Positions 6,759 through 57,701 of a DNA stretch of 64,000 nt are shown piece by piece. How positions within the stretch are numbered: position 1 is the first letter of the stretch; each line of letters starts with the position of its first letter. This DNA is from Anthracocystis setariae (taxonomy: Eukaryota; Basidiomycota; Ustilaginomycetes; Ustilaginales; Ustilaginaceae), in contig CAKMXJ010000028.1 in NCBI GenBank assembly GCA_928724745.1, forward strand, positions 30,153 through 94,152. The letters run 5' to 3'. The notes under the pieces are model-generated. The model did no database searches. It was not told where the DNA came from and saw only the letters and a list, made by a program, of their open reading frames with translations. Made by a program: the position numbers and the translations under genes.

Positions 6759-6845
6759 TGTGGCTGGATGATCGATGTAGGATTCCAAGTGAGACGCAAC
6801 AAGTGAAAATCTAATTACAGGAAATTATCTGGGCCGAGAGCCACA
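6759..6845 (-). repeat. G1 3' LTR (87 bp)
   Basis: It starts TGTGGCTGG and ends GAGCCACA, with the perfect terminal inversion TGTGGCT/AGCCACA. It differs from 21442-21528 at two positions that I can see. The purine tract abuts it on the internal side. Confidence 0.8.
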
Positions 6846-6962
6846 CTCCACCTTCCCTAAATTGAACTTAGTGCTTTTTTTAAATAAATTTGGCTCCGGG
6901 CAACTTGTGTTCTGGCAAGTTTGGCAAGAAACTTCCATCATCTCACTCAAAACTTGTCAAAA

Positions 6963-7451
6963 ATGGCCTTAAAGACCACTCAATTGAAAGCTACAGACGC
7001 CCCCAGCACAACTGTGCCCGCTGTTTTGCCCTGTTATCGCTGTAAGCAGAAAAACGCCACCTGTGAACTTGCTGATGGCTCCAAGAAGTGCAAGGGCTGC
7101 CTGCCTGCCAACTCTAGGTGCAATGCCAACGGCATAGTGCCTGGCTTTCAAGAGCCAGAGTTGAAGGAGATCTACCTAGAGCAACTTCTCAAGAAAAATC
7201 CAACTTTCCACTGGGTGGCTGAAAATTTGGAACAACCTGCCAAATGCACCAAATGGGATCCACCTAGCACCAAAGTCAAGAACCCCAAGCCAAAGGGTCC
7301 CCAAATGCCCACTAATTGAGCCAAAGCTGAAAAGCTACTTGCCAAATACAAGGTAAAGATCCCAAAGATGGCCAAAGAGCTCCGAGTAGCCCGACTGGCC
7401 TACAACTACCAGCAAAACCTCTATGGTCTGACCAAGTATCCTGAATTGTAA
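6963..7451 (+). pseudogene. G1 antisense Zn2Cys6-like gene, one in-frame TGA
   Basis: The ATG at 6963 sits in a good context (CAAAAATGGCC). The frame runs to a TGA at 7317-7319 (118 residues) and continues open and sensible to a TAA at 7451 (about 162 residues if the TGA is a mutation). Residues about 25-55 contain six cysteines spaced CX2CX6CX8CX2CX6C, exactly the spacing of a fungal Zn(II)2Cys6 binuclear cluster. The gene lies between the pol stop (7504, opposite strand) and the 3' LTR, convergent with pol. Larger genes at the same site in G2 and G3 also carry cysteine clusters. The TGA is preceded by T (TTGA), which would fit a TCGA to TTGA change. Confidence 0.6.
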
Positions 7452-7503
7452 TTAGTCTGCACTTCACTATGCCAAAGGAATCCACAAGAACCCAAAGGTA
7501 ATA

Positions 7504-7759
7504 TCATTCATCCTGTGTGTGTCCAACATCTGCCAAACTTTCAGAGATGATGACAGGCTCTGTCCAAGGTTGCCATCTCGGTTGCTGACTGCGTTGAGGC
7601 TCTTGTGGTTCTGCCTGAGGCAATTCCGACTCTATCTGAGAGGGATCTTCTGCAGGTGGCAGTGCCGTAATGTCTGTGTTGTCCAACTTGGACATGGTTT
7701 GCATCTCTGTTGACTCCAAGAGAGCCAATCCCTGTGAGTTCTGAGAATGTTTGGCCTGT
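7504..7759 (-). pseudogene. G1 pol C-terminal tail, cut off by G2 insertion
   Basis: This minus-strand frame continues the G1 pol frame that runs up to the G2 insertion at 15968. Crossing out G2 and one copy of the ATGAT duplication rejoins the reading frame. The tail is acidic and rich in Pro and Gln (EPQEPQRSQQP) and ends in HTQDE at 7504. No chromodomain is present. Confidence 0.6.
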
Positions 7760-7764
7760 ATGAT

Positions 7765-8125
7765 TGTTATGCTCCTGGGGTCTTAGAACCTCGGAACGTG
7801 GCGGTGCGTCTGTGTCGAGGCCAGGGGCGTGGTACCGGGTGTTGCTCCCGGGATCGTTGCCAAGATAGCGGGGCGGGCGAGCGGGAGATCGGGAGAAGGT
7901 CTGATATTTCCACCTACTAGAGTGAGTAAGCTAAAATACAATCGACGTCCTAACGTGAGTGTGATGGGATCAGGGTGTGGGGTTATGTGGCCCTCCCGGA
8001 TACCCCCTCCGGGAGATGCCGCAGTCTCCCCCGATCACCGATCCGGGACCTCATCGGGGGAACTACCCCCGCCCATGTTAATACTAAAACCAAACACTAA
8101 CTCCCCCGATATCCCAATCATAACA
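7765..8125 (-). repeat. G2 3' LTR
   Basis: 361 bp, TGTTATG to CATAACA, matching 15602-15962. On its right a C-run (G-run on the element strand) forms the polypurine tract. Confidence 0.92.
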
Positions 8126-8145
8126 TTACCCCCCCCCCCGGGAAG
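8126..8145 (-). other. G2 polypurine tract
   Basis: On the minus strand a run of G followed by TAA directly precedes the 3' LTR. G3 has the same arrangement at 26427-26436. Confidence 0.7.
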
Positions 8146-8324
8146 GCCGACGTCCCCGTGGCCTACTTATTACTCCCGGGCCTTAAGTTCCACCCGGGAG
8201 GCTCCCGGACCCACCACGCGTGGCCCGCGCTGAGAACAAAGGGACCAGGAACGACGCTTTGTGTGCCTGGCGGGGCGTGCGCGGCGGAGCGTGCGCAGCG
8301 GGCTGAGCGCTAACTTCTCTTTTG

Positions 8325-8332
8325 TATATAAG
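8325..8332 (+). promoter_or_regulatory. TATA box of the G2 antisense gene
   Basis: TATATAAG lies about 89 bp upstream of the inferred ATG at 8414, on the plus strand and inside the element. It is opposite to the direction of gag-pol. It supports an independent promoter for the antisense gene. Confidence 0.6.
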
Positions 8333-8413
8333 ACTCGCCTCGCTCCCGTTCCTGGTTCCTTCCCTTCCCCCACAACCTCGTTCCTCAACGCCCGGAACAC
8401 TATTTCCTTCAAG

Positions 8414-10335
8414 ATGCCTGGTGAGTACCGTCCGGGACCCGGGAGACGGGTTATGATCATGTGCTGACGTTCTCTTTTTTTCCTTTTACCATAACAGCAA
8501 CAAGATCTTCCACCCGGCGAGGTGGCTCCGGCGCTGGGGTGTCGGGAGGCTCTGCCCCCGCCCCCGGCAACAACAATGACGTGGACGAGTCCCGGGGCGT
8601 GAGTGCCCCGGAGGTAGTGGACGAGTCCCGGGGCGTGAGTGCCCCGGAGGGTGTGGACGAGTCGGGCCGCTATGTGGCTCAAGAGGGAGACGTAGTCTCC
8701 CTGTATGTGGACGAGTCCCCCGTGCTCCCGCGCGGGGAAGCTGGCCCCGATTTGGTCCCGGGTGTCCAGGGCGTGGACGAGTCCCCGGCACAGGCTTTGG
8801 CCCCGTGTCGGGAAGATGGGCAGCAGGCTCCCGGGCTCCCGGGTCCAGAAGCCAGCACCGCGACGGCCCCTCCCAGTGGGGCTGTCCCCGGGCCCTCGAG
8901 CGTGGCCGCCCCGACTCCCGGGGCTGGCGTAACGATCGGGGATCCCGGGAGGCTGGCAGAACTGGTCCGGGAGGTCAGAGCACGGGGTACCCCTCCCGTC
9001 TCGGAGGGGTATGGGCACTGTTGGTCTTGCGCCAACAGTAAGAAAAAACCCCACCCCCAGTGCTCCCTGGGGTACGCGCATCGGGACGCCAGGGGTCCGG
9101 AGGACCCCCGGGACGGCCAGCATGCCGCGTGCGAGAGGTGCCATGTCGCGGGGTATCCCTGCGACTGGCAAGGGCGCGTCCCGGACATCACGGGACGTCA
9201 GGAGGGCGGCTTCCTGATGGAAGCCTATCTTGTCCTCCGGGCCCGGGGTGTCCGTCCTAACCCCGGGATGCCCTTTACGTCCTTCTCGGCGGCGGACCTG
9301 CCGGGGTATCTGGCGGCCGAGTACGCCCCCGCGCGTGCTCGGTACGAGGCTCGACGCCAGGCCAAGGTGGGGACTCGTCCCTGGGCCCCCGAGTCTCCCG
9401 CTGGGCCGTCCTCCGGTGGAGGCACCAATGTCCCGGGCTCCCGGCCTCCCCGGGGTCAACGGGGGTGGAAGCAAACCACCCTTGTCCCCGACGCTCCCCT
9501 GGCCCTGCGCCAGGTTTGTCCCTTCGACGCTCCGGGGGACCAACATATGGCCGGGGCCCGGGAGGCAGCATCCCACGCGGCGGGAGTCATCGCCGCGTTG
9601 GTGCAGGTCCTTCGCCGGACCGCTGCCGTGGGAGCGGAGAGGCGTCTCGAGTGGTCTTCTCGGGACGAGAACATCCTCCGCTACCTGGAGGGTGTGAATG
9701 GTGCTTTCGAGAGCATCACCCGGGAGCTTGGCGTCCCGCCTCCTCCCCCGCCCCCAATGGTGCCCGCGCCTGCCCCTGCCCCTGTCCCGGTTCCCGCCCC
9801 CGCCCCTGCTCGCGTGGCGGCTCCCCCGCGGCCCAATGCTGAAGCTGGGCCGTCCCGACGCTGGGGTTCCCCTCCCCCGGGATACGCTCCGGCCACCCCG
9901 GAGTTGGCGCGTGCCAAGAGGCAGCGTCCCGGGACGCCCACGCGGGAGCGAGCTCCCCGGGCCAGTGGCTCTCGGCCACAGACGGGAGGAAAGCGCCCTC
10001 CTCAGACGGGGGGTAAGCGCCTCCCGGGGAGCTTCCAAACGGGCGGGAAGCGTCTCCCGGTGGGTGGACTCCGCCCTCCCTCTCCCGAGCCGGAGAGGCG
10101 TGCCCAGCGCCGCCGTGCTCAGGCGGTGGTGCGGGACATGCGGGCCCCGATCCGTGCCCGTCGTCGGGGCAGCTCCCGGGAAGACTCCCGGGGCGAGTCC
10201 CGCGGCGAGGAGTCCTCGGGGGCGGAGGACCAGAGCCGGGAGTCCGGGGAGGGCTCTGACGAGGATGTGGTGATGGTGGACTTGGACGTATACGAGTCCC
10301 GTCCTCGCACCCCTCCGCGTCGGGGGCGTCGATAG
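8414..10335 (+). CDS. G2 antisense Cys-cluster protein, spliced
   Basis: Exon 1 is 8414-8420 (ATGCCTG), then a 77-nt intron 8421-8497 with GTGAGT donor, CTGAC branch-like site, pyrimidine tract and AACAG acceptor, then exon 2 8498-10335, giving 614 residues. The N-terminus has five VDES repeats. The centre has a cysteine cluster (HCWSC, a third Cys 10 residues on, then CERCHVAGYPCDWQGRVP), followed by LMEAYL and RPNP blocks shared with the G3 protein. The C-terminal part is Pro/Arg-rich with three QTGGKR repeats, then an acidic/RS tail ending in RRGRR. This suggests a nuclear DNA- or RNA-binding protein. The function is not known. It is convergent with pol, whose stop is 334 bp beyond. Confidence 0.75.
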
Positions 10336-10668
10336 GCCCCCGGGAGCCATGTTCTGTCGTGTGTCCGGGGTCATTAGGATCCCGGGAATAAGATTGTGTT
10401 TACCCCGAGTTCCCGCGTGTTGAGTGTGTATGTGTGTGTATGAGAGTGAGAGTGTGGGTGTGTCGGAGAGCCCTCTGTCCCCTGGGCGCGGTGGCCGAGT
10501 CGGAAAAGCAACCGGGACGGGCTGAATCCGGAGGGGCGCGTGGCTCTTGACTGCTATCCCGCCTCCCGGATCGGGGCAATCCGTCGCCCGTTCCCTTGCC
10601 GATGCTTCCCAAGGTGGCCGCGCTGGTCGCTCCCGCGCTGGCGTCCGGGGGGCGGGGAAAGCCGGGAG
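10336..10668. other. G2 spacer between antisense gene and pol stops
   Basis: A non-coding convergent spacer. It contains a GT/GA-rich simple stretch (10420-10465) and a fragment at 10488-10535 that recalls tRNA A-box and B-box sequences but does not form a complete tRNA. An AATAAG at about 10386 could serve as a poly(A) signal for the antisense gene. Confidence 0.5.
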
Positions 10669-13600
10669 TCAGCAGTCCCGGGAGTTAACCTGGCTCCCGG
10701 GCCGACGCTGATGGAAATCCTGGAGCAGTTCTTGGCTGTTTTCCAGGTGAATCGCGGGCTCCCAGGTAGGTTGGGTGTACCCCGCCCACTTCACCCGGTA
10801 CTGTAGCCCCCGACGTGTCTCCCGGGAAGCTAGGATATCTTCCACTTCGAAATCTTGTCGGTCGTCCTCCAGGCGCCGGGACGTCGGGGCGTGCTCGGAG
10901 GGCCGGGTGTCTGGGGAGTGCGGTTCCAGGAGGCTGACGTGAAAGACCGGGTGGATTTTCCAGGCAGGCGGGAGGTCCAACTTGTAAGCCCGGGAGCCTA
11001 CCGCCTGGAGGACACGAAACGGTCCCGCTAGCGGGTTCCCTAACTTCCGGGACGGTCGATCTTGTTGGAGATGCCGAGTGCGGAGTAGCACCATATCACC
11101 CCCGGAAAAAGACCGGTCCATCCTGGAACGGTTGGCATAATGTGACATAAGACTGGCAGCGTGGTCGATGTTGACTTGACAGTGCTTGAGGAGCTTCCGG
11201 AAGGACGAGTCGGAGGGCGGAGCACCATCCGGGGAGAGGGCCGGGGAGCCGGGGAGGGTTCGCGGAGTGAAGCCAAATAGGGGTAGGGTGGCCGGGAGTC
11301 CGGTAGTAGCTGACACCCTATTGTTAAGCGTAAGTTGGGCGTACGGCAGCCATGCAGCCCAGTCATCTTGCTGGTAGTTAACATAGAATCGGAGGAAAAC
11401 TTCTAAGTTCTGGTTGATACGCTCAGTTTGGCCGTCGGTTTGCGGATGATAGGCGGTTGAGAGGGCCGGGGTGGTCCCGAGGGCGGTTAATATGTCTTTC
11501 CACAAGGATGCTATGAAAGTGCGCCCCCGGTCCGAGACGATGGCGTCCGGGAGTCCAAAATAGGCGAAGACGCGGGAGAACAGTAGGTGGGCGAGGTCTT
11601 TAGCTGTATCGGACTTCCGAGCCGGGAGGAAAAGTGAGTATTTGGTGAGGCGATCGACGACAACAAGGACGGAGTCGAATGTGAGGCCACCGGCCCGGGA
11701 AGGCGGGAGACCTTCGATATGGTCCATGGTGATGGTCCCGAACGGCCGGGACGGGGCCTCGAGCGGGAGTAGCAGTCCATAAGGCTTATGCCGGGGTGCC
11801 TTAGCGCGCCTACAGGCTCCGCAGGTCCGGACGTACTCCGTAACATCATGCTTAAGGGTCGGCCAGGAATGGTGACGGCGGACTAGTTCGATGGTCGCGG
11901 CCACTCCCGGGTGTCCCGCCGTTGGGTGGTCGTGATAACGTTCTAGGATGTGTTTAACTTCGGTGGGGGACACGGGACTGGTCGGGAGAGGGTCGGGGGC
12001 CGGGACCACGTCAGATATTCGGTGCGCAGCCGGGGCCCGCTGTTCCGACAGCCCGGACTCTTGGAACAGGTAGGGGGGTAGGAGGACCGCGACGTTAGCG
12101 GGGTCATGCTGGTGATTGGTAGTGGTGGTGTTGGGATGACCATCGGAGCGCCGGGACAGAGCGTCCGGGCGGGTTGCCTGGGTCCCGGGTCGGTACGTGA
12201 TGGTGAACGTGAACTCCCCGAGAGCCATGCTCCACCGGGCCTGCCGCCTGTTAAGTTGCCGCTTTGTTTGGAAATATTGGAGGGCCTGGTGGTCGGTGAG
12301 TACCTCAAACGGCTGCTGGAGCCCGTGGAGATAATGTCTCCATTCCTGCAACGCGTCCACGATGGCTAGGAGCTCCTTATCGTGTATTTCGTAGTTGCGC
12401 TCTGCGGGCTGCATTTTCCGCGACCAATAGGCTACCGGGTGGAGCCGGTGTGTCGAGGGCCGGGGTACGGCCTCGGGGTCCGTCCCCGGGATGGCGTACC
12501 ACTGCGAGAGTACGGCGGCCACGACGTAATCACTAGCATCTGTCTCGATCACTGTGAGCCGGGAGGGGTCAAAGTGTTGTAGGATTGGGGCGGTAGTGAA
12601 GGCTTCTTTGAGACGGGTGAAAGCCTCCCGCTCCTGAGGCTCCAAGTTGATCTTACCGGCAGCCTTGTTCTTGAGCCGATCGGTGAGCGGGGCTGCCACC
12701 CGGGAGTAGTGCCGGATAAAATGACGGTAGAAATTAGCAAATCCTAGGAAAACCTGGATGTCCCGGATTGTGACCGGTTCTGGCCAGGACGTCACCGCGT
12801 CCACCTTGCCGGGATCCATACTGATCCCCCCGGGACTGACCTGGTACCCGAGGAATTCGACGGACGAGGTCCTGAAGTCGCATTTTTCCGGGGCACAGTA
12901 CAACTTGTGGTCCCGGAGGCGCCTCAACACCTCCCGGACGTGAGAGGTGTGTTCCGCGGGGTCGGCCGAGAAAATGAGGATGTCATCCAAATACACTATC
13001 ACAGTGACGTCCAAGAGGTCGTGGAGGACGTGGTTCATAAGACGCTGGAAAGTAGACGGGGCGTTACATAGCCCAAAGGGCATAACTAAGTACTCATAGC
13101 TCCCGTACCTGGTCCGGAAGGCTGTTTTCCATTCGTCGCCCTCCGCGATGCGAACAAGATTGTAGGCCCCCTTAAGATCCAATTTCGTGTAAATCTTAGC
13201 CCGGGAGAGGCAGTCCAGGTGCTCGGAGATCAGGGGAATCGGGTACTTGTCTTTGACGGTGATGCTGTTGAGGGCCCGGTAGTCGACGCAAAGGCGGAGT
13301 TTGCCATCTTTCTTCGGGACGAAGATGATAGGGGCGGCTGCCGGGCTCTTGGACGGCCGGATGAACCCTATCTCCAGCATCTTATCCAGATAGGTCTTTA
13401 GTTCCTCCATTTCTCTCCCGGAGAGGGAGTACAGCGCGCCGTGCGGGATCTGAGCTCCGGGGAGGAGGTTAATATGGTGGTCGTGGGGCCGGCGAGGCGG
13501 AAGCACGTCGGCGTTGGCCTCATCGAACACGTCCGAAAAGTCCCGGTACTCTTCCGGAAGGCCTGGGGCCCGGGATGGCTCCAAGGAGCTGGGGTGGATA

Positions 13601-14560
13601 GCGAAACAGTTCTCCCCCGGGACGGGATCCTGTCCATTGGTAAGCAGCGGGGGGCCGGTAGGTTGAACCGGGGTGGTGGCATAACCCCCTCCTCCCGGGA
13701 GCGGGAAGTGCATGGTTTGGGTTTGATAATTGAGTACCGGTTCGGTCTTCTCAATCCAATCCATTCCTAGGATGATATCATAATCGGAGATGCGGGGTGC
13801 GACGTAGAATTGATGACTCGGGGTAACCGGGACGCCCGCGAGGCTGACCGATGCCCGGATAGTGTGGGTGATATCCTCTGAGCGGGAATCGAAGGTTGCT
13901 GTACGCACCGGGGCCCGGAGGGCCTCCGGGACGCCCACCTCCCGATCCAGCATGGCCCTGTCCACAAAAGAAGCGGTGGCGCCCCCGTCGATTAGGGCCC
14001 GGGCACGGCACCCGGCCAGCGTGACCCAGCACTCGTACACCGGGATGCTGGGGTGTCGGTGTACCCGGATGGTGTCCCCGCTGATCACCGGCTCGGCGGG
14101 GGGGATGAGGGCCGCTACATGGCTCCTGAGATCCACGAGTCCCGGGTCCTGACGAAGTTGGGCGATGTTGGCCCTCACCGGGAGAGTCGGAGGGTGGTCG
14201 GTGGACTCGGGGTCCCACTCCGGATCATAGGAAAGGACGGAGCGGTCATCGGGTAGGTCATCCTCGCCGTTGGTAGGGGTGGCTTCGTCCTCACCGGACC
14301 ACCGGGTCTCCGGGACGTCCGGGACCAGGGGTTGGACCAGAAGCTCGCCGTTGGCGGGGTCCAGGATGGCCACGTTGGCCCGGAGGGGCCGAGTCTGGGC
14401 GGCCTTGGGGCAGTCCCGGACTGCGTGAGGGCCCCCGCACCCGTAGCAGAGGTTGTTTTCCCGACGGTACTTGCGGACCTCGTCGGGAAGCTCCCGGCTG
14501 GCCAGCCCGGGACGGGGCGGATCACCCCGCTTGTTGGGGGCCTCGCGACGGGGTACCGTC
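10669..14560 (-). CDS. G2 pol: protease-RT-RNase H-integrase-chromodomain
   Basis: The first ATG is at 14373, but the same frame is open upstream to about 14560 and there encodes the gag zinc knuckle CYGCGGPHAVRDC (about 14428-14462). That placement shows the normal protein is a gag-pol fusion broken by a one-base loss. Domains in order are protease with ALIDGGATASFV (DGG rather than DSG); RT with VIVYLDDILIFS (about 13000); RNase H with TDASDY; an integrase with an HHCC finger (HPTAGHPG ... CGACRRAK) and DHIEG, SDRGRTF and GQTERIN, the D,D,E triad; and a C-terminal chromodomain (YRVKWAGYTQPTWEP, about 10700-10860). It copies and inserts element DNA. The chromodomain would guide insertion to marked chromatin. 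Confidence 0.9.
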
Positions 14561-15554
14561 GGTTGGGTGAGCGACCGCCCCGAAGTTCGGGGCGGCGTTC
14601 CGGGCGACCCGGGGTGTCCGAGTGACCCGGGGTCACCAAGCCGATTTCGTACATTCGCTGCTCGGTTCGGATAGCGGTGTCAATGTACTCGTGCAGGTCG
14701 TAGGTCTCCACGTGGAGGAGCTTCTGCCGGAGGCTCTCCCGGAGGCTGAGCTGGAAAGTCGTCAGCAATTGCTGATTATCGGTAGCGTTAGCCTTAGTGG
14801 CTAGGGCCAAGAACTCGGCAGCGTGAGCGCTGACGCTTCCCGATTGACGCAGCCGCTGGAGCTTGACCCGGGCGGTATGTCCCGGGTTAGGATCCCCGTA
14901 GGTGCGGCGGAGGTCGGTGCAGAACGTGTCCCACTTGTGGAACAGGTTGATTTCCGGGCGGGCCTGGCGCAGGTTGCGGAGCCGCTCCCGGGGTACACCC
15001 GAGATATGGGCTAGGGCCCATAAGACACGGCGGGGGTCGGAGGGGAAGCGTGCCGGGTTAAGATCGAAATGGAGGGTGCATTGTTCGATGAAAGCCTCCA
15101 GCTCGTCGCGCTTACCGTCCCAGGAGGGGGCGGCAACGCTAACTTCCGGGGTCTTGACCCGGGAAGAATAGTCCTCCGTAAGGTCCCAGTTGGGAGCCAC
15201 GACGGGAGCTCCCGGGGGCACCGGCTGGGGATTGGACCCGCGCTTGCCCATAAGGCGAGTAGCGCGGGCGTACCTTTCCTCCGAGGTCTCGCGTTCCGGA
15301 GAGGGGTCTCCCAGGTGCTCCATGGGCGGGAGGCCCGGTTCTGCCGGGGTCGGGACGGCGGGGTCGGGGGCTCGGCCGCTGTTGAGCAGCCGGATCTGGT
15401 CGGCCAATCCTCCGACCAGGGCGGTTAGGCTCTGCACGGCGGCGACTAGCCCCTGGACGGGGTCGCCTCCTGAATCGGGACTTTCGGGGGTAGGGCTGCC
15501 CGAACTCGTAACTGAGTCCGGGGAGCCGGGACGATGCTGGCTACGGGTTTGCAT
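14561..15554 (-). CDS. G2 gag (frame lost at 14561)
   Basis: Starts MQTRSQHRPGSP at 15554, just inside the 5' LTR. It contains the DGKRDELEAFIEQC...HFDLNPARF block shared with G3 and G4, the capsid-like region of Gypsy gag. In G4 the same region stays in frame into the zinc knuckle. G2 lacks one base at about 14561 (GTCGGTTGGG against GTCGAATTGGG in G4, as read on the strand shown for G2), so its gag frame runs on into an unrelated frame to 14175. Confidence 0.85.
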
Positions 15555-15601
15555 GGTAGCTGGAGTCTCCGCGTTGATGGCAACGGGGAGGTCGATTGTA
15601 A

Positions 15602-15962
15602 TGTTATGCTCCTGGGGTCTTAGAACCTCGGAACGTGGCGGTGCGTCTGTGTCGAGGCCAGGGGCGTGGTACTGGGTGTTGCTCCCGGGATCGTTGCCAA
15701 GATAGCGGGGCGGGCGAGCGGGAGATCGGGAGAAGGTCTGATATTTCCACCTACTAGAGTGAGTAAGCTAAAATACAATCGACGTCCTAACGTGAGTGTG
15801 ATGGGATCAGGGTGTGGGGTTATGTGGCCCTCCCGGATACCCCCTCCGGGAGATGCCGCAGTCTCCCCCAATCACCGATCCGGGACCTCATCGGGGGAAC
15901 TACCCCCGCCCATGTTAATACTAAAACCAAACACTAACTCCCCCGATATCCCAATCATAACA
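15602..15962 (-). repeat. G2 5' LTR
   Basis: 361 bp, matching 7765-8125 apart from two substitutions seen. It is followed on the right by the ATGAT target duplication and resumed G1 pol. Confidence 0.92.
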
Positions 15963-15967
15963 ATGAT

Positions 15968-18792: not shown

Positions 18793-19508
18793 CCTTTTTT
18801 TTTAAGATCTGTATCTTCCACATCCTGAAAGATCGGTGTCTTGGTGATGTTGTTGATCATTTTGGCATCTTGAACCTGCCGTATAACCACCATATAAGCT
18901 TCATCTGGCCCAGTCTTTAAGACTTTCTGTATCCACATGGCCGAGATGAGTTCTGACTGTCCATGTGGAACAAAAGGAGTTTGTTGAAGTGTGGTTTGGC
19001 ATCCAAACGGTATTCTATGATGGTCACCATTGTCCAATTGGAGAACCATTTTGTCCAAAAAGAAATCAACCGTTGCCTTGTGTTGCCGAAGCCACTCTAC
19101 CCCTAAAAATAGTTTTGCCAAAGTCATACCTATGACTGTAGCCTTGACCAAGTATTGATGTCCATCAATAGTGACGCCGAAGGTTGTCCAACCTTGGATA
19201 GTCATGGCCGAACCGTCCGGTAAGGCCGCAACTTTACTGAGTTCAGCATCTTCTTCTATCCGAAGGTTCAGTTGCTGTGCAAAATTCTTTGCAATGTAAG
19301 CCCGAGAGGCTGCCGAGTCAATCAATGCATCCGCATTGGCTCTGTTTATGGTTACCGCAATCCAAGGTAACTCAATTGGATCTTCTTGACATCCATCCTG
19401 AAGCAAAGAGAGCCAAAGTGCTAGTCCTGCAACTTCATCCTGCAAGAGTTGATTTGACTCTGTCCGAGGAATGGTACTTTGGTCGGAAACATCCTCAATT
19501 ACTGCCAA
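18648..19508 (-). pseudogene. G1 protease region
   Basis: The 286-codon frame contains ADALIDSAASRAYIA, the aspartic protease site (DSA), followed by GVEWLRQHKATVDF, the usual second protease strand. It overlaps the RT frame at its end, a sign of a frameshift. Confidence 0.75.
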
Positions 19509-21406: not shown

Positions 21407-21441
21407 TGGTTTGCTAGGCTCTGTTTTCAGAAGCTACCAAT

Positions 21442-21528
21442 TGTGGCTGGATGATTGATGTAGGATTCCAAGTGAGACGCAACGAGTGAAAATCTAATTA
21501 CAGGAAATTATCTGGGCCGAGAGCCACA
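21442..21528 (-). repeat. G1 5' LTR (87 bp)
   Basis: TGTGGCTGG to GAGCCACA. On the minus strand AT then TGGTAGCTTCTGA follows, which fits a primer-binding site for an initiator-Met-like tRNA end. Confidence 0.8.
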
Positions 21529-22659
21529 CACATTCCGTGGCCTCTGTCTCACCGCACACTCATTGCTGCGCTCCTCATGTATATAGTCAAGGTCATTGCC
21601 GGAGATCTCTCTCCTCCTTGGAAGCCACTGCCTTGACTATACACACGTTGCATACAAGCTGTGATTGTGTGACAATGCAACTGCATCAGTTATCAATTGA
21701 ACTGTTGGATCGCAGCAATCAGCATTTAGTCTGTTTCAGAATCCGGCCAAAAATCCGAATTTTTTCAAAAACTCAAGTTTTTTTGTGAACTACAAAATGC
21801 AAAACTCGAAGTCCAAACATTGTGTGAAAGAATAGACGTGTGAAACTACAGCCTTGCAGCAAAGCCAGGATAAATAGTTCATTCTGACTTTTGAGCAGGA
21901 CTTACAGAAGTAGGCATTGGGCGATCAACCCCAACGTTGGGTTTTAACAAACAGCAGGTTTGTTGGAATCCCAAAAGCCTAAGGATATCCAAACATTGTC
22001 TTTGTTATTATTTCAAAGACCCACCTCGGGTTTCTTACATTCATGCCATTTTGCAGAGGTTTTGAAGCTCAAATGAAGGATACTATGAGTACTCAATGAC
22101 TACTTGACAAGTTGTCAGAGAGAAGGTATGGTAAGAGTAAATGGGGAAAGATTTGATAAATTCCAAGAGCACTAATGGGGCATGACAACACAGTGCTTAT
22201 ATACACAATTGACTAGTCTGGATACTCATATACAAGAGTACTTGATGGTCTGCTACAAGGAGCATCCCACTTGCGGTGTAATCTCCCTGTTCTGTTACCA
22301 ATGTGTGTTTTCATTGATGAGAGTATGATCTATTGGTCGGATTGTGACAATCCATTGTGAGTCTTTGTTCCATGCCCAAATGTAGTAAACCTGACCACAG
22401 GTTTGAGGTAGTGTCTTGTATCATATGTCTTGAACTGTGGGTTTCAAACGCATGTGGGAGTTTCCGGCAATTTTCCATAAATACGGTCATGTTTGTCTGG
22501 ATCCGGCTTGAATTGTGAGTCTGCATGCAGATAACAGAACCCGATGCTGGGTTCTGGGCCAAAGGGTGAAATGCTCTTAGTGTGAGACGACATAAAGAAC
22601 CCTAGGTTCTAACAGTCCCCCTTGTTGAGCACTTCACACACTTAAGGCACACACAATAC
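21529..22659. other. Non-coding, possible CACTA-1 end region
   Basis: No gene. An 11-bp inverted repeat (TATAGTCAAGG ... CCTTGACTATA) lies at about 21587-21642. AACCC/GGGTT inverted motifs at about 21930-21950, 22025-22040 and 22540-22600 resemble those near 35960-36080 on the other side of CACTA-1, so this may be its subterminal DNA. The element end was not located. Confidence 0.35.
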
Positions 22660-23557: not shown

Positions 23558-23603
23558 CGCAGGGAGAGGTCGGCTGCAGAGGCGTAAGGGACAGGCGGCC
23601 TCA

Positions 23604-25989: not shown

Positions 25990-26426
25990 TGTTAAGCGCC
26001 AAGGGTCTGACAACCTCCTGACTGTTTGGCGTGGCACGCGGTGTGCGAGGCTTGGGGCTTGAGGGCGCGTGGCGGGAGTGGTGGCCACGAGAGTCACCGA
26101 GCACGATCCTGAGGTTAACGGTTCTACCGTTGGGTCTGATATTCGCTATTACTCAAGGTAACTAAGAATACATTCGACGAGCGGACGACAGGGAGGTGGC
26201 GCGCAGCTACTCACTTATAAAGCATCACGCGTGCCGCGCGGCGCGCAACGGAACGTAGGCCGCGCGCGGTCCTGACTCGCGAGGTGGACCTTGTCATGTC
26301 ACGCGTGGCACGCCCCCTCCTGCACGGCGTACCGCGCGGCGCGCCCCAGTGGCCACACATCGCGCGGCACGCACCTGGCGGCACTCTCGTGGCGCGCTGG
26401 CTGGGGCCCCCCATCCAGCCGTAACA
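25990..26426 (-). repeat. G3 3' LTR
   Basis: 437 bp, TG...CA, apparently identical to 34034-34470. A C-run (purine tract on the element strand) follows at 26427-26437. Confidence 0.93.
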
Positions 26427-26702
26427 TTACCCCCCCGCCTCGGGGTGCGCGCACTCCGGAGCGCGCAGTCCCACTCGCGGCGGCGGGCGGGAGTGGTCCC
26501 AAAAATTTTCACTCGTGGGGCGTGGCGCGGCGCACGCGTCGATCGCTGGGCGCACAAAGCGTTGCGCAGCGGAGGGACTCAGCCTCATTTGGGTGCTGCG
26601 GCTCACAATGGCCGATCGACGGGGGCGTACACTTCTCCCTCCTTCCACCACCTGACTACATCTCGACCTCTTACGCTGGGACACCGAGTTAGCTGAACAA
26701 CG

Positions 26703-28565
26703 ATGACCACCAATAGTAAGTATGAACACGTTTGGGGTACGGCACCTGCGGCGAGGCGTTGACTGACGCGTGGCTCTGAATTTCCGGTTCCTGTGTCTGG
26801 CCAGCCGACACGCCTTCGAACGAGAAGACGCGCGCTGAAGCTGAGGCCGCGTCCACCCTTCGTGCAATCTTGGCCGTGGTCCCCGATCCTCGGGCAAGCA
26901 GCGATACCGCCGTCCCGCCCCCGGTGGTGGCTGTGGCCGGGCCCCCTCCAGCTGCACCCTCTCCAACCGACAAGGCCGGTAAGTAGCCCCTTCCCTTGGC
27001 GCTTTGATCCGGTGTACGTACTGACTCCGATCTTCCCGGTGGGGATGCGGTGTCTGACAGCACCCGTAACGCCGAGCACTCCCGTGATTGAGATCCCTTC
27101 TTCGCCGCCGCCCCAGGTTTGCGATGGTGCACCTTCCCCCAAAGTGCGCGATCCCCCTTCCCCCGAGGCTCGCGACCGAGCTCCCTCCCCCATCGACGAT
27201 CGCGCCGACCAGAGTCAATTCCGCTATCAAGTGTGGGAGATCCTGCCGTGGGGCGAGCGGAGCTGCCCTATCGTGGACTCCCTGATGCGGGAGCGCAAAG
27301 ACCAGCCCATCGGCGACGTCCCCTTCGTGGTACGTCTCATCAAGGCCGCTCTGGTGCTCAGTGATCCCGATTGCGAGGAATTCATGGCTCCCTGCTATGC
27401 ATGCGAGCATAAGGGCTGCGACGCCGCGGCATGCCACGTGGATCCCGAGCGTGGCGCCGTGACGGGCAAGCGCGACGCTGGCGCCAGGATTCCCGAAGAG
27501 ATCGCCCGAGCCTTCGAGGGCATGCCGACGCCTTGCAGCGCGTGCGGCACGAAACGTAAGTGCGACTGGCGCGGCAGGATCCCGTGGCTGGGGAATCGGC
27601 TCGAGGGCCCGTGGCTGATGGAAGCCTACCTCTGGATGCGCGTCCTGGGCCACCGTCCTAACCCCGCCCTGACCCCGTCGATGGTGCCGGTCGGCTCCCT
27701 CCCGCCCTACATGGAGACTGAGCGCGCCGCCGTCGTGCAGCGCTACGCCAGGCGCCGTTGGCCGCGTACCAGTCGCCGGACTAGGGCCGACCGAAGCGAT
27801 GACAACGAGAGCAGTGAGAGCGATGGCGAATCCGTGGAGGAGGAGCCCGAGCCCGCTACCCCCAGCCCCCGCGCGACCCGTGCTACCCGAGCCCGGGCTG
27901 CCGACCGTCCCCGTCCCCTGAGCTCGCCTAAGGCTCCTCGTCCCCGCCGCGCTGCCGCGCGTAAACCCCTCAGCGCCGCCCCGGGGGTGAGCGCTACCAT
28001 CCGCGCGACGCCGCGTAGTCGTGACGAGGAAGCTGGGGGGTCGTCGTCCCTGGGTTCCAATCCGCCGGCGCCATCGGCTTCTTACCGGAAACAGGCGGTG
28101 CATCTCCAGCGCAGCACGGAGGCCATCGAGCGCGCGCTCGACGATCTCAAGGTTACGATTCGGCAGTGCGCCGCCGCTGGCCTGCTGGAGGGTATGGACG
28201 TGCAGTCTTCCACCATGAAGCGGCACCTGATGATGCTGGAGTCTACGCCCGCCGCCCTGCGAACGACGCTGCACGAGCTTGTAGACTACTGGCGGGTGAG
28301 CGGCCCCGCGTATCTGATTGCCTCGGACTCGTCGGACTCGGACAGCGCGTCCCATGTTGCCGCTGCTCGCGAGCGTGTTGGGCGCCTTCTGGATCGCGCG
28401 CCACCGACTGGCGTCCCGCACCCGGCTGCTGACTCTCCCGTCGCTGCGGTACCCGCGCGCCGCGCGTCGCCCTCGTCCCCCTTGGCGGCGGAGGCTCCTC
28501 GCACGCCGAAGCGTCCGCGCCGGCAAGCGCTTCTTGATGGTGGAGAGGACGCGGCTCCGGCCTGA
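26703..28565 (+). CDS. G3 antisense Cys-cluster protein, two introns
   Basis: Exon 1 is 26703-26715. Intron 1 is 26716-26804 (GTAAGT...GGCCAG). Exon 2 is 26805-26978. Intron 2 is 26979-27060 (GTAAGT, CTGAC-like site, GACAG). Exon 3 is 27061-28565. Together they give 563 residues, with phases that join correctly and no stops. The N-terminus is Pro/Ala-rich and disordered. The centre has PCYACEHKGCDAAAC, then PCSACGTKRKCDWRGRIP, then GPWLMEAYLWMRVLG and HRPNP, which align with the G2 antisense protein. The C-terminal part is Arg/Ser-rich with an amphipathic stretch near residue 460. It is probably a nuclear nucleic-acid-binding protein of unknown role. It converges on gag-pol with a 432-bp spacer. 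Confidence 0.75.
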
Positions 28566-28997
28566 GTCCTCAACTGTACCGCGCGCCCCTTGCACTGTTT
28601 CCCCAACGTCTGCTGGCCGGCTCCGGTGACCCCGTGGCTGGCCGTGAAATCCAAAATGCTTCCCGTGCTGTTGTGCCTGTGTCGTAGCGTTCGTGTCTGA
28701 ATTACGGTGAGGAGTGAGCGTGGCGAGGTCCCGTGAGTGCTGTGGCGCGCGGGGTTCCAGGACCTCTGGCGTGCCGCGCGGTAGTGGGGGGCTGTGTGAG
28801 GGCAGCGGGCACGCCCGTAAGGGTGGCGAGCACGCCGTGAGTAAGCCGGCGCGAGGCGGGCTGGAAGCTCGTCCTGGGGGTGCGCGCGCCAACGACGGTG
28901 GCGAGCGCGCCATAAGCAGGACGACGCGAGGCGGGTTAGGGGTTCGCCCTGAGGGAGCGCGCGGCCTTGGGAGGTTGCCGCTAGCCCCCGGCCGCCG
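28566..28997. other. G3 convergent spacer
   Basis: A non-coding stretch between the stops of the antisense gene and gag-pol, GC-rich, with imperfect repeats of about 70 bp (GGCGAGC...GCGAGGCGGG at about 28825 and 28900). No RNA gene was recognised. Confidence 0.5.
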
Positions 28998-31900
28998 TCA
29001 GGCCTGACTCCGTCCCGTGGGCGCTCCTGGGTGCGACCTGTGGAATTCGTCCACCAGCTCTTGGCTATTGGCGAGGTGATGCGCTGGCTCCCATGTGGGC
29101 TCATCATAACCGGCCCACTTGACCTGGTACTCGAGGCCCCGTCTGCTCGTTCGTGCCTCCAGCAGTCGTTCCACCTCAAAGTCTTGGCGGTCGTCTTGGA
29201 GGTTGGTGGCTTGTGGCGCGTGCTCCGTGGGGCGCGCGCCCGCTGGGTATGGCTCGAGCAAGCTCACATGGAATACCGGGTGAACGCGGGAGCCTGCTGG
29301 CAGGTCCAACCTGTACGCGCGCTGGCCCACGGCCTCTAGAACCGTAAATGGTCCGGCGAGGGGGTTGGACAGCTTCTTGGACGGTCTGTCCTGGCGCAGG
29401 TGTCTGGTGCGCAGCAGTACTTGGTCACCCCCGGTGTAAGACCGATCCGTCCTGGATCGGTTTGCGAGGCTCGCCATGGCGCGCGCGGCACGCGCGATGT
29501 TGTCCTGGCAGGACGCGATGAGCACCTGCAGGGAAGCCGGGGAGGGTGGCGCACCATCGGGGGCGAGCGCGGGGGAACCCGGGAGCGTTTTGGGCGTAAA
29601 ACCAAAAAGGGGAAGGGTGGATGGAAGGCCGGTAGCGCCAGCGGGGCGGTTGTTGATGGCAAGCTGCGCGTGCGGGAGCCACGCGGCCCAGTCATCCTGC
29701 TGGTAGTTGACGTAGAGGCGCAAAAAGACCTCCAGGGTTTGATTGGTACGCTCGGTTTGGCCGTCAGTTTGAGGGTGATAGGCCGTGGATAGTGCCGGGC
29801 GGACCTGGAGTTGCTGTAGCACCGCTCGCCAGAGGGAGGCGATGAAAGTGCGCCCGCGGTCGGAGACAATCTGGTCAGGCAACCCAAAATAACAGAACAC
29901 ACTTGTAAAGAGCATGCGTGCGAGGTCGGGAACGGTGTCGGATTGCCGCGCTGGGATAAAAATCACAAACTTGGTGAGGCGGTCTACGACTACAAGGATG
30001 GAATCGAAGAGTGTGCCGCCCACGCGCGAGCGCGGGAGGCCCTCGATGTGATCCATGGAGATGGACCCGAACGGACGGTCGGGCGCGCCCAACGGGAGTA
30101 GCAGCCCGTAAGGTTTATGGCGCGGGGCTTTGGCGCGCTTGCAGGCAGAGCAGGTGGCGACGTAGGTGACAACATCTTGCGCGAGGGTGGGCCAGCTGTG
30201 GTGGCGGCGGACGAGCGCGGTGGTAGTAGCCACGCCGGGGTGCCCCGCGGTGGGGTGGTCATGATAGCGGGACAGAATGGCGGCGATGTCAGCCGCGCTG
30301 GAAGGGGTGGCCGGAAAGGCGGTCGCCGGGAGGAGAGCCGCGCGGCGCGCGGCCGGGGCCGGGAAGTTGACGGGGTCGGCGCCGGTTGTCTCGGGGTGGA
30401 CGAACAGGGAGGGCGGCAAGAGGGTAGCTACATTAGCGGGGTCGCCATGGCGTTGGGCGTCCGCGAGGTTTGGGTGGCCATCGGATCGGCGTGACAGAGC
30501 GTCCGGCCGCGCGGCCTCTGTACCCGGGCGGTAGGTGATGGAGAATGCGAACTCCGCCAGGGCGATGCCCCAACGGGCCTGACGGCGATTGAGCTGGCGC
30601 TTGGTTTGGAAGTACTGGAGAGCTTGGTGGTCCGTGAGGACATCAAACGGTGCGTGCAGCCCGTGTAAGTAGTGGCGCCACGCTTGAAGGGAGTCGACGA
30701 TGGCCAGGAGCTCCTTATCGTGGATCTCGTAGTTGCGCTCGGCAGGCTGCATCTTCCGTGACCAATACGCCACTGGGTGGAGACGGTGCGTGCTCGGGCG
30801 CGGCGCTGTTGTAGTGGCGGGGTTGATTGGGTACCATTGGGACAGGACGGCCGCCACGACGTAGTCACTGGCGTCGGTTTCCACTACTGTGGGCAGCGCT
30901 GGGTCAAAATGTTGCAGGATAGGAGCCGTGGTGAATGCGCGCTTGAGGGTCTCGAATGCGGCCAGCTCGGAGGGCTCTAAGGAGATGCGCCCGCTTGCTT
31001 TGCCCTTGAGGCGGTCTGTGAGCGGGCGAGCCACGCGCGAATAGTGTTTGATGAATCGTCGGTAGAAGTTGGCAAAGCCAAGGAATACCTGGATGTCACG
31101 AATGGTCGTGGGTGCGGGCCAGGTAGTTACGGCCTCGACCTTCGCCGGGTCCATGGAGATACCGGCCGGGCTGACTCGGTAGCCCAGGAACTCCACCGAG
31201 GTGACCCCAAATTCGCACTTGTCGGCAGCGCAATATAGCTGGTTATGGCGCAAACGGCGGAGCACCTCGCGCACGTGTGTGTCGTGCTCGGCGGGATCGC
31301 GGGAGAACACGAGGATGTCGTCCAGGTACACCACCACGGACACGTCGAGCAGGTCGTGCAGGATGTGGTTCATTAAGCGCTGGAACGTAGATGGCGCGTT
31401 GCACAACCCGAATGGCATTACCATGTATTCGAAACTACCGTAGCGCGTGCGGAATGCCGTTTTCCATTCGTGCCCCTCCTTGATACGGAGGAGGTTGTAC
31501 GCCCCCTTCAGGTCGAGCTTGGTGAAGACGCGCGCTTGCGCGAGGCAGTCCAAGTGTTCGGCAATGAGGGGTATGGGGTACTTGTCTTTGATGGTCACGC
31601 TGTTGAGCGCGCGGTAGTCGACGCACGGTCGGAGGCGACCGTCTTTCTTAGGTACGAAGATGATAGGGGCCGCGGCGGGGCTCTGCGATTCCCGAATGAA
31701 CCCAATAGCAAGCATCTTGTCAATGTACTTCTTGAGCTCATCGAGCTCGCGTGCGGACAGGGAGTATAGTGGCCCGTGTGGGATCTTGGCTCCCGGCAGG
31801 AGGTTGATCTCGTGGTCCTGGGGGCGCGGGCGCGGCAGGATGTCGGCGTTGGCCTCATTGAACACCTCCGCAAACTCCTGGTACGCAGCGGGGATGTCCT

Positions 31901-33995
31901 TAGTCGATGGTGCGGCGGCGAGCTCGTCCGCGTGCGCCTGGACAAGGACGCAGTGTTCGGCGGCATTGTCGGTAAACGGCAGCGGGGGGATGGCCCCGGC
32001 CGGGGGCGTCGCGGGCTCATGCTCGCCTTGCCCGGGCAGGGGAAATTGCATGGCGCGAGCCTCGTAGTCGAGGACGGGGCGCGTGGCCTCGATCCAGTCC
32101 AAGCCTAAGATGACGTCGTAGCTCGATATGCGCGGGGCCACAAAGAAGCGGTGGTGGGGGGCGACAGTGAGGCCCGCCAGCCCCACGGCTGCCCTGCAGG
32201 TATGAGTGATGGGCTCCGAGGCTGCGTCGAACGTCGCTGTCTTAACCGGAGTGGCCAACCCGTGCAGGTCGATGCCCGCGCCCTCGAGGAGATCCTTCGC
32301 CACGAAGGACGCGGTAGCGCCGCCGTCGATGAGAGCGCGCGCCCGCAGGTGGTCAATGGTGACCCAGCACTCGTAGGCCGGAATGCTGGGGTGACGACTC
32401 ACACGGATGTGGTCGCCCCGAACAGATGGCTCCGCGATGGGTTCCAGTGCGGCGACATGCGTGCGGAGTGGGAACCAGTCGGGGTGAGTCAGTAGTTGTG
32501 CCACGGCCGCGCGCGGAGGGAAAAGGGCGTCTTCAAAACCCAGGGGATCGAGGGTGGGGTCGTAGACCGCTTCGTCGTAGGCATCCCTTTCGGCCGGGGG
32601 GTCGCACTCGGTAGGCGCGTGGTCTGAAGAGGGGTCTTCTCCTTCGGGCGGCAGGAGGTAGTTGCCTGTGGTGGGCTCAACCGTAATGACATTAGCGCGC
32701 AGCGCGCGCTCCTGTGTGGCCTGTGGACAATCGCGCGCGAGGTGCTTCTCGCCACAGGTGTAGCACAGGTTGTTCTCGCGCCGGTAGCGGCGTGTGTCCT
32801 CCGTGAGCTTCTGCAAAGCCGTGTTGGCGCGGGCCGGAGCATGGAAAGTTGGGCGCGCGGCGGCCGGGGCGGCGGCGGGGCGGGCGGCGTTCAGCCCACC
32901 AGTCGGGGCTCCCGTCGGGGTCGTACCGGGCTCCGGTCGGGGGCGCTCGTCATTGCGGCCCGTCGCGCGGCCCGGAATGTGGGCGGTTCCGGCTGAGTCG
33001 AGGCCGGTTTCGAGCATCTGCTGCTCGGTGCGTACAGCAGCGTTGATGTACTCCTGCAGGTCGTGGGTCTGCACATGTAGGAGGTGACGCCGGAACGTCT
33101 CGCGGAGTCCCAGCTGGAACGTAGTGAGCAGCTGCTGCTTGTCGGTAGCGTTGGCTCGCGTGGCCAGCGCCTGAAACTCGGCAGCGAAGCGGCTGACGCT
33201 CCCGGTTTGACGCAGCTTCTGCAGCTGCATCCTGGCCGTATGTCCTGGGTGAGGATCGCCGTACGTGCGGCGTAGGGACCCGCAGTAGCGCGGCCAGTCG
33301 TGGAAGATCGGGTCGTGGGGGCTCGCCTGGCGCATGTTGCGCAGGTGGTCGCGAGGCGCGCCACCCACGTGTGCCAGGGCCCAGAGGACCCGGCGATTGT
33401 CTGTGGCAAAGCGTGCCGGGTTGAGGTCGAAGTGCAGCTCGCACTGCTCAATGTAGGCCTCCAGCTCTTCACGCTTACCGTCCCAGTCGGGGGCAGCGAT
33501 GCGGAGTTCGGGAGCTTTGTCGAGGCTCGCGTCCAGGGGAGCGATCCACGGCACCAGAGGGGGGGCCGGGAGGGAGTACCCAGGCTGCGGCTCGCGGGCG
33601 TGGTGGGGGTCCTGCTCCATCCGGCGGGTGGCTCGCTCGTAGCGCTGCTCGGATGTCTCGCGATCCGTCGCCGGGTTGGGAGCCTCTCTGGGGGGCTCCG
33701 CTTCGGCGGCCCTGGGCGAGCGCTGGGAGGGGGTAGCCGCGGGGGGTGGTTGGCCTCTTTGCTCGCGGCGCAGCGCGCGCATCTCCAGGACCAATTCCTG
33801 CAGGACGGCCATTTGCTCCTGGAGCACCGCCATCAGCGGGACGGCGGCCTCCGGGGCGGGCGCGGGGGAGTTGGTGGTGGTCGCGCTCGCCGAGGAGGGT
33901 GCGACGACCACGGGAGGATCTTCCCCGGCGGAGGACCAGTCGTCCAAGGGGTTTTGGTTAGCGACCTGGCTGCGAGTCACCGGCATGGGGAGCAT
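28998..33995 (-). CDS. G3 Gag-Pol polyprotein, intact
   Basis: One frame from the ATG at 33995 gives 1665 residues; upstream in-frame ATGs to 34148 lie in the LTR and are unlikely starts. Approximate domains are gag capsid-like 120-330, zinc knuckle CYTCGEKHLARDC 406-420 (CX2CX3HX4C, one residue shorter than canonical), protease ALIDGGATASFV 550-562, RT from 760 with VVYLDDILVFS near 888, RNase H TDASDY near 1037, integrase HHCC finger 1240-1295, D,D,E motifs DHIEG, SDRGRTF and GQTERTN about 1310-1410, and chromodomain YQVKWAGYDEPTWEP about 1600-1660. All key residues are present. It makes the particle and copies and inserts the element. Confidence 0.93.
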   Translation of the reverse strand: MLPMPVTRSQVANQNPLDDWSSAGEDPPVVVAPSSASATTTNSPAPAPEAAVPLMAVLQEQMAVLQELVLEMRALRREQRGQPPPAATPSQRSPRAAEAEPPREAPNPATDRETSEQRYERATRRMEQDPHHAREPQPGYSLPAPPLVPWIAPLDASLDKAPELRIAAPDWDGKREELEAYIEQCELHFDLNPARFATDNRRVLWALAHVGGAPRDHLRNMRQASPHDPIFHDWPRYCGSLRRTYGDPHPGHTARMQLQKLRQTGSVSRFAAEFQALATRANATDKQQLLTTFQLGLRETFRRHLLHVQTHDLQEYINAAVRTEQQMLETGLDSAGTAHIPGRATGRNDERPRPEPGTTPTGAPTGGLNAARPAAAPAAARPTFHAPARANTALQKLTEDTRRYRRENNLCYTCGEKHLARDCPQATQERALRANVITVEPTTGNYLLPPEGEDPSSDHAPTECDPPAERDAYDEAVYDPTLDPLGFEDALFPPRAAVAQLLTHPDWFPLRTHVAALEPIAEPSVRGDHIRVSRHPSIPAYECWVTIDHLRARALIDGGATASFVAKDLLEGAGIDLHGLATPVKTATFDAASEPITHTCRAAVGLAGLTVAPHHRFFVAPRISSYDVILGLDWIEATRPVLDYEARAMQFPLPGQGEHEPATPPAGAIPPLPFTDNAAEHCVLVQAHADELAAAPSTKDIPAAYQEFAEVFNEANADILPRPRPQDHEINLLPGAKIPHGPLYSLSARELDELKKYIDKMLAIGFIRESQSPAAAPIIFVPKKDGRLRPCVDYRALNSVTIKDKYPIPLIAEHLDCLAQARVFTKLDLKGAYNLLRIKEGHEWKTAFRTRYGSFEYMVMPFGLCNAPSTFQRLMNHILHDLLDVSVVVYLDDILVFSRDPAEHDTHVREVLRRLRHNQLYCAADKCEFGVTSVEFLGYRVSPAGISMDPAKVEAVTTWPAPTTIRDIQVFLGFANFYRRFIKHYSRVARPLTDRLKGKASGRISLEPSELAAFETLKRAFTTAPILQHFDPALPTVVETDASDYVVAAVLSQWYPINPATTTAPRPSTHRLHPVAYWSRKMQPAERNYEIHDKELLAIVDSLQAWRHYLHGLHAPFDVLTDHQALQYFQTKRQLNRRQARWGIALAEFAFSITYRPGTEAARPDALSRRSDGHPNLADAQRHGDPANVATLLPPSLFVHPETTGADPVNFPAPAARRAALLPATAFPATPSSAADIAAILSRYHDHPTAGHPGVATTTALVRRHHSWPTLAQDVVTYVATCSACKRAKAPRHKPYGLLLPLGAPDRPFGSISMDHIEGLPRSRVGGTLFDSILVVVDRLTKFVIFIPARQSDTVPDLARMLFTSVFCYFGLPDQIVSDRGRTFIASLWRAVLQQLQVRPALSTAYHPQTDGQTERTNQTLEVFLRLYVNYQQDDWAAWLPHAQLAINNRPAGATGLPSTLPLFGFTPKTLPGSPALAPDGAPPSPASLQVLIASCQDNIARAARAMASLANRSRTDRSYTGGDQVLLRTRHLRQDRPSKKLSNPLAGPFTVLEAVGQRAYRLDLPAGSRVHPVFHVSLLEPYPAGARPTEHAPQATNLQDDRQDFEVERLLEARTSRRGLEYQVKWAGYDEPTWEPAHHLANSQELVDEFHRSHPGAPTGRSQA

Positions 33996-34033
33996 TGTTT
34001 GAGCGTGCGGGGTGACGGGTAGGTCGAATGTAA

Positions 34034-34470
34034 TGTTAAGCGCCAAGGGTCTGACAACCTCCTGACTGTTTGGCGTGGCACGCGGTGTGCGAGGCTTGGG
34101 GCTTGAGGGCGCGTGGCGGGAGTGGTGGCCACGAGAGTCACCGAGCACGATCCTGAGGTTAACGGTTCTACCGTTGGGTCTGATATTCGCTATTACTCAA
34201 GGTAACTAAGAATACATTCGACGAGCGGACGACAGGGAGGTGGCGCGCAGCTACTCACTTATAAAGCATCACGCGTGCCGCGCGGCGCGCAACGGAACGT
34301 AGGCCGCGCGCGGTCCTGACTCGCGAGGTGGACCTTGTCATGTCACGCGTGGCACGCCCCCTCCTGCACGGCGTACCGCGCGGCGCGCCCCAGTGGCCAC
34401 ACATCGCGCGGCACGCACCTGGCGGCACTCTCGTGGCGCGCTGGCTGGGGCCCCCCATCCAGCCGTAACA
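34034..34470 (-). repeat. G3 5' LTR
   Basis: 437 bp, apparently identical to the left copy. On the element strand a TTTATAAG TATA-like box lies at about 34258-34266. Confidence 0.93.
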
Positions 34471-50812: not shown

Positions 50813-50859
50813 TTACAATCAACCTCCCCGTTGCCATCAACGCGGAGACTCCAGCTACC

Positions 50860-55738: not shown

Positions 55739-55777
55739 CTCCCGACTGCCACCGCACAGCCCCGGATGGGCAGGCCA

Positions 55778-56460: not shown

Positions 56461-56624
56461 ATGCTTATCCCCAGCTAGGCAGCTCTGGAAGACGGTCCAT
56501 TTGAAAATTGGAAGACGCGTCTGTATTCAAATTGGAAGACGGTCCAATACAAATAAGACGGTCCAATACAAATTGGAAGACGGTCCAATACAAATTAAGA
56601 CGGTCCAATACAAATTAGACCGGA
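56461..56624. repeat. Short tandem motif AGACGGTCCAATACAAAT
   Basis: About five imperfect copies of an 18-24-bp motif (GACGGTCC...AATTGGA) between family A and the minisatellite. Confidence 0.7.
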
Positions 56625-57700: not shown

Positions 57701-57701
57701 T

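Follow-up and report, generated by a model that had tools for sequence, protein, structure and literature searches.

What is the long open frame that runs antisense to pol between the pol stop and the 3′ LTR of a Gypsy retrotransposon in Anthracocystis setariae? The frame lies in a window of 64,000 nucleotides, the whole stretch of DNA that was analyzed (C27:30153-94152 of a 21.47-Mb assembly with 36 contigs). A preliminary description had placed a gene at this site, opposite to pol, with TATATAAG, an ATG, a 77-nt intron, 614 codons and a cysteine cluster, and all of these parts were recovered (Table 1). TATATAAG has four exact matches in the window, compared with a shuffle mean of 0.29. TATATAA is present in 24 of the 30 copies that were fetched, and the remaining six (L007-L012) have CATATAAG.

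The host element, element A, has a pair of 361-bp LTRs with two differences and an ATGAT target site duplication (TSD) at both ends. A Pfam search of its pol revealed protease, reverse transcriptase (RT), RNase H, integrase and chromodomain, in the domain order RVT_1, RNase H, Integrase_H2C2, rve, SH3_Tf2-1 and Chromo. With the RT-RNase H-integrase order and a C-terminal chromodomain, element A is a chromovirus (chromodomain Gypsy). The C-rich run that adjoins the 3′ LTR would be the G-rich polypurine tract of the element, and of the 30 copies, 20 had a parsed LTR end, with TTACCCCCCCCCC directly after the LTR in each of these.

Table 1 Features of elements A, B and C in the window (strand as given; positions are those of the window)
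Feature	Position	Strand	Details
Short antisense ORF, element C	6963..7319	+	Opposite pol frames; CX2CX6CX8CX2CX6C
3′ LTR, element A	7765..8125	-	TGTTATG...CATAACA; TSD ATGAT at 7760-7764
C-rich run on + strand	8126..8145	-	Adjoins 3′ LTR
TATATAAG, putative promoter of antisense gene	8325..8332	+	87-90 nt upstream of ATG in eight subfamily representatives
Antisense gene, element A	8414..10335	+	Between 3′ LTR and pol stop (10669), opposite strand to pol
Exon 1	8414..8420	+	ATG CCT G
Intron	8421..8497	+	77 nt, phase 1, GTGAGT ... CTGAC ... CAG
Exon 2	8498..10335	+	Remainder of 614-residue protein; stop 10333-10335
Six-cysteine cluster	9019..9162	+	Residues 177-224; inside most conserved stretch
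Predicted helical hairpin	9535..9726	+	Residues about 349-412; overlaps second conserved block
pol open frame, element A	10669..14679	-	1336 codons; convergent with antisense gene
gag open frame, element A (Retrotrans_gag)	14175..15767	-	Stop to stop; extends into 5′ LTR
5′ LTR, element A	15602..15962	-	TSD ATGAT at 15963-15967
Second Gypsy element, family B	25990..34470	-	Identical 437-bp LTRs, TSD TCCCC
Homologous antisense gene, family B	26703..28565	+	Exons 26703-26715, 26805-26978, 27061-28565; 563 residues

The length of the frame was considered weak evidence for a gene, because the opposite strand is equally open. In this stretch (GC content 71 %), the plus-strand frame is open for 636 codons, longer than in any of 1000 dinucleotide shuffles (maximum 503). 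On the minus strand, which is non-coding according to the selection test below, the stretch has an open frame of 640 codons (832 codons in its fuller context) that likewise exceeds its shuffles (maximum 590). Thus, the shuffle control does not single out the gene. When both strands of the window were searched for the combined signature of ATG, donor, branch point and acceptor, it was observed at only two places, 8414 and 26703 (the family B gene), and 30 shuffled windows gave a mean of 0.1; as the signature was composed after both genes were known, its informative part is the absence of further matches.

Substitution rates were compared using a plain Nei-Gojobori count, with the exon 2 codons taken from one nucleotide alignment and gapped codons dropped. 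The antisense frame of L001 showed ω of 0.18-0.29 against nine of the 29 other fetched copies, at most one codon being set aside for a stop, whereas the open minus-strand frame showed 1.3-1.8 against the same nine. Three further pairs gave 0.18-0.21 in the antisense frame. Across the 28 pairs of eight representatives, ω of the antisense gene was 0.13-0.26 with the exception of one near-identical pair, which had 0.85 in the antisense gene and 0.85 in pol; in the other 27 pairs, pol had 0.07-0.19. Several copies have broken frames.

The ATG, the donor GTR(A/G)GTA, the branch point CTRAC and the acceptor CAG were found in all 30 fetched copies, the acceptor via a motif that includes the first bases of exon 2. 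The branch point is located 25-37 nt upstream of the acceptor, and the weakest donor is that of L018 (GTAGGTA). While the intron bodies diverge by up to 42 % between representatives, these signals are retained. Eight intron lengths (75-82 nt) were observed, of which five, at 11 of the 30 loci, are not divisible by three. The near-identical loci L001 and L003 (77 nt) differ from L002 and L004 (78 nt) by one intron base with the downstream frame unchanged, and this fits removal of the intron. Without splicing, the first methionine of the window copy would be at residue 264, after the cysteine cluster (residue 198). This is not a general feature, because several other copies, e.g. L007, L013, L019 and L024, have an earlier ATG in the unspliced frame. 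Transcription and splicing of the antisense gene are predicted from these signals. The genomic RNA of LTR elements is the sense strand, and introns on the opposite strand stay in it; the antisense gene would therefore keep its intron through transposition. On account of the frame-specific purifying selection and of splice signals that all 30 fetched copies retain, the antisense gene is almost certainly a genuine protein-coding gene under constraint, and its earlier description as a real third gene of the element is upheld.

Genome-wide searches, in which all counts are lower bounds, gave at least 66 matches to the cysteine domain, and these merged into at least 58 places. At 51 of the 58 places found, a family A or B pol is convergent 1174-1336 bp downstream, and a same-strand pol within 3 kb was found at none of them. 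Counted from pol, the antisense gene is present at 51 of the 57 family A/B pol places found. All 30 fetched family A loci have the C-terminus of pol on the opposite strand, and 29 have an LTR match upstream (just 76 nt at L030; no match at L015). In all reasonably complete elements, the relatives lie opposite pol and adjoin an LTR.

The homologous gene of family B contains two introns, the first with the same phase as in A and likewise just past the start. The A and B proteins share mostly 34-39 % identity (E-values about 1e-12 to 1e-16). Among the 20 places behind L033-L056, pol is on the opposite strand in 17, a family B LTR match is present in 17 and the ATG-donor signature in 18. Five pairs of the family B antisense gene gave ω of 0.12-0.15, compared with 1.8-2.7 for the open minus frame.

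Element A is itself inserted in, and splits, an outer Gypsy-type element C (about 6759-21529), which has terminal repeats of about 88 bp and pol frames on the minus strand. The short antisense ORF of element C has a single other match in the genome, L032, and this copy is split by an inserted A-type LTR (L032:1141-1500) within its cysteine cluster. When A, B and C were aligned, all nine rows shared the three cysteines of the second half, followed by G and P, in addition to YL and NP columns; the L032 row is without the first half of the cluster. The alignment of C with A/B is short (20-25 % identity), and a search of this genome with the element C sequence did not find A or B. The element C ORF may be a shortened relative of the A/B gene, with a link much weaker than that between A and B.

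Two readings in which the frame is not a gene of the element were weighed against these data. Long frames could result from the 71 % GC composition, with splice sites arising by chance, and the open minus strand of the same stretch agrees with this. However, the purifying selection is specific to the frame in two families, and the splice signals persist in 30 of 30 copies despite single-base shifts in intron length; the chance of such a coding illusion is next to negligible. It is also very improbable that the gene was captured from the host and travels as passenger cargo. Seven of the 58 places have no pol, and at one of these, L044, the 1.5-kb flanks contain no LTR and no pol, as would suit a host gene. 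L044 is more likely a fragment, because it lacks the exon-1 signature and shares about 90 % identity with the element gene. The other six consist of five partial matches (two on C10, C2:1614913, C20:449737, and L046 beside an LTR) and the full match L043, which is also beside an LTR; the fetched flanks of L046 and L043 contain no pol. With L044 as described, no free-standing host-gene copy was seen among the cysteine-domain places of the genome, and the gene is under constraint in most family copies.

Constraint along the protein was analyzed in 30-residue windows of the eight representatives. The pN/pS values were 0.05-0.15 at residues 154-303 (0.05-0.13 around the cysteine domain), 0.06-0.12 at residues 334-393 and 0.09-0.16 at residues 454-543, the basic tail. 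Four of the five N-terminal windows had 0.58-0.80 and the fifth (34-63) 0.17, and the remaining windows had 0.22-0.39. Constraint therefore peaks in the cysteine domain and near the predicted helical hairpin. Basic stretches are RRAQRRR and RRGRR in A and KRPRR in B. In the structure model, the cysteine part was poor (pLDDT blocks 41-57) and the stretch following it good (78-96), and a Foldseek fold search of this model gave no match at E ≤ 0.001. A two-helix hairpin was modelled with high confidence and overlaps the second conserved block; constraint is weaker in a window that its second helix reaches into (pN/pS 0.27). Fifty PDB neighbours of the hairpin were among the matches listed, all with E ≥ 1, including the dimerisation domains of ING4 and ING5. 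The hairpin shape is common and carries no weight as evidence.

A Pfam search of the A, B and C proteins gave no family over the cut-off, and family B had a hit to SOG2 (E = 1; 9.2 bits vs. a cut-off of 26.9). Zn_clus (PF00172) had no match to A, B or C at E ≤ 1, and reached E = 4, under the cut-off, in one of the nine cysteine-domain members. Solved structures gave no match by sequence, and a profile search gave one at E = 4.8, a cytochrome. Relatives outside this genome were not found in the protein databases, collections possibly poor in fungi. The Zn(II)2Cys6 pattern is CX2CX6CX5-12CX2CX6-8C. Like Zn(II)2Cys6 proteins (PF00172), A and B contain six cysteines in two CX2C...C halves. However, their cluster is central, its spacing (C177-x2-C-x10-C-x22-C-x2-C-x6-C224 in family A, and different in B) is outside the usual pattern and the Pfam cut-off was missed. 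The spacing of element C alone fits the pattern. The conservation peaks in the cysteine domain and near the hairpin suggest that the antisense gene encodes a nuclear nucleic-acid-binding accessory protein, and we consider this probable.

The gene was compared with known systems. Zhao et al. reportedly described the antisense gene brtn of Boty-like elements in 2011. In the available portions of the sources, brtn is an antisense gene of Boty-like Gypsy elements of Botrytis cinerea (PMC8365987, PMC4227169, PMC5987419, PMC7264820). Like the element A gene, it is antisense to gag-pol and located between pol and the 3′ LTR (PMC7264820), a comparison limited to place and orientation; the Boty pol ends in a chromodomain, as does that of element A (PMC4227169). 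The preliminary description had known of no described fungal cysteine-cluster counterpart. It needs correction in that brtn, a gene of fungal Gypsy elements with antisense orientation, was already published according to the accessible text of PMC8365987, PMC7264820 and PMC4227169.

Plant Gypsy elements carry aORF-3R genes (Grande gene23, RIRE2 and Retand TRP28) with the same place and the same orientation as the element A gene, as far as the available text of PMC7264820 and PMC11963269 goes. In the same portions, a separate promoter and a product located in the nucleus are described for Grande gene23 (PMC7264820), and DNA binding is predicted for TRP28 (PMC7264820, PMC11963269). The portions available report TRP28 from flowering plants only and describe Retand as non-chromoviral (PMC7264820, PMC11963269), whereas element A is a chromodomain Gypsy and no TRP28 or other known domain was found in its antisense protein. 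The word 'intron' is absent from the main text of PMC11963269. The antisense genes of A and B agree with aORF-3R in location (opposite strand, with pol on one side and the 3′ LTR on the other), in their presence in most family copies and in their conservation as protein (ω 0.12-0.29). For the element A gene, the conserved TATA-type sequence is a putative promoter of its own. HBZ of HTLV-1 is a nuclear bZIP accessory protein with its promoter in the 3′ LTR. Both HBZ and the element A gene are antisense, whereas the element A protein has a cysteine cluster and its TATA is inside the element; no homology is claimed. HBZ is named as the antisense gene of HTLV-1 in the available parts of PMC7264820 and PMC11963269.

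The word 'antisense' does not occur in the main texts of a fungal LTR survey (PMC3248453), a smut retrotransposon paper (PMC9603552) and a Tcn1 paper (PMC2864245). Among the matches listed (titles and abstract starts, with most subscription journals outside), none described an antisense gene with a cysteine cluster or an intron in Gypsy elements of basidiomycetes. In the available part of PMC7264820, retrotransposons with antisense accessory genes are those of plants and of a single group of fungi. An antisense gene at this site thus belongs to a known class, and the protein family and the host are new as far as searched. In the present case, purifying selection acts on an antisense gene in two Gypsy families that share one compact fungal genome, and the antisense orientation accounts for the preservation of the introns. 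As no Pfam model reached the cut-off on the element A gene, such genes may be easily missed, our results suggest.

In the explanation that we favour, and hold on balance to be likely as a whole, the element would have three genes, gag and pol expressed from the LTR promoter and the third located on the opposite strand. RNA polymerase II would transcribe the third gene, starting at a separate promoter within the element, and the transcript would be spliced and translated. Its product, with a predicted zinc-binding cluster of cysteines, a helical hairpin that probably self-associates and a tail of basic residues, would return to the nucleus. There it would bind nucleic acid, and the most likely target is DNA of the element or of the chromosomes. 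The bound protein would regulate transcription of the element or aid the nuclear stage of its life cycle. The antisense intron would be left unspliced in the genomic RNA and inherited at each transposition, and the separate antisense promoter would make the output of the gene independent of the LTR. A zinc-type cluster combined with a helical block and a basic tail is in keeping with a self-associating nucleic-acid-binding nuclear protein. A regulator of its own element is the leading reading of the specific role, held with less confidence than the accessory role itself. A more specific proposal, tentative and rather unlikely, is a zinc-cluster TF-like family proper to fungal Gypsy elements, encoded antisense with conserved introns, that binds the fast-changing U3 of each subfamily and sets expression or copy number. 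If this were true, gene and U3 would co-evolve as a module exchanged between elements. The favoured explanation clearly predicts a plus-strand spliced transcript and a nuclear nucleic-acid-binding product. Together with the defined domain of the protein and the many subfamilies that occur naturally, this prediction makes the system tractable.

As the main alternative, the product might be a structural or integration helper, a nucleic-acid chaperone or pre-integration-complex factor working with gag and integrase or directing nuclear entry or target choice. The occurrence of the gene beside 51 of the 57 pol places found for families A and B, a constraint not far from that of pol, and a zinc-type cluster and basic tail suited to RNA or DNA binding all agree with a helper. 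However, a particle protein needed with gag would be expected on the sense transcript, and a separate antisense promoter and intron would better fit separately timed, low-dose expression; by these considerations, which are argument only, a helper is doubtful though conceivable. A further reading, which we regard as improbable, assigns the function to the antisense RNA: transcripts that converge across the 3′ portion of pol would give dsRNA, and RNAi would limit copy number. The gene and pol are indeed convergent with 333 bp between their stops, and the genome contains one Piwi family match and three RdRP matches, but such a mechanism leaves unexplained ω of 0.12-0.29, the block-wise conservation and the A-B protein homology. 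An RNA role could exist in addition to the protein.

Several further observations were made on the elements. Between L001 and L029, dS was 0.09 in pol and 0.50 in the antisense gene, and between L014 and L020 it was 0.13 and 0.33, respectively. Family A elements look mosaic in these sequences, with 3′ modules seemingly swapped by recombination or template switching. Among the compared pairs of LTRs from 20 family A loci, U3 diverges between subfamilies by up to 44 % and R-U5 stays within about 4 %. An apparent solo LTR related to element A is located at 23603-23950. A further family A copy in plus orientation (50617-60700, frame 50981-55738) has no match to the antisense gene. It continues into repeats of 70 bp and 1019 bp, with runs of GGGTTA near 57703, and this may be a subtelomeric boundary. 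In the A LTR, the 10 nt GTCGATTGTA are complementary to sequence immediately internal to the 5′ LTR (15602-15962 with 15572-15601), and family B has GTCGAATGTA with a matching change (34213-34222 with 34003-34032). The primer site of A and B looks self-primed, an arrangement that we take to resemble that of Tf1. This self-priming motif is kept in 18 of 20 A-family LTRs and changed in L020 and L028.
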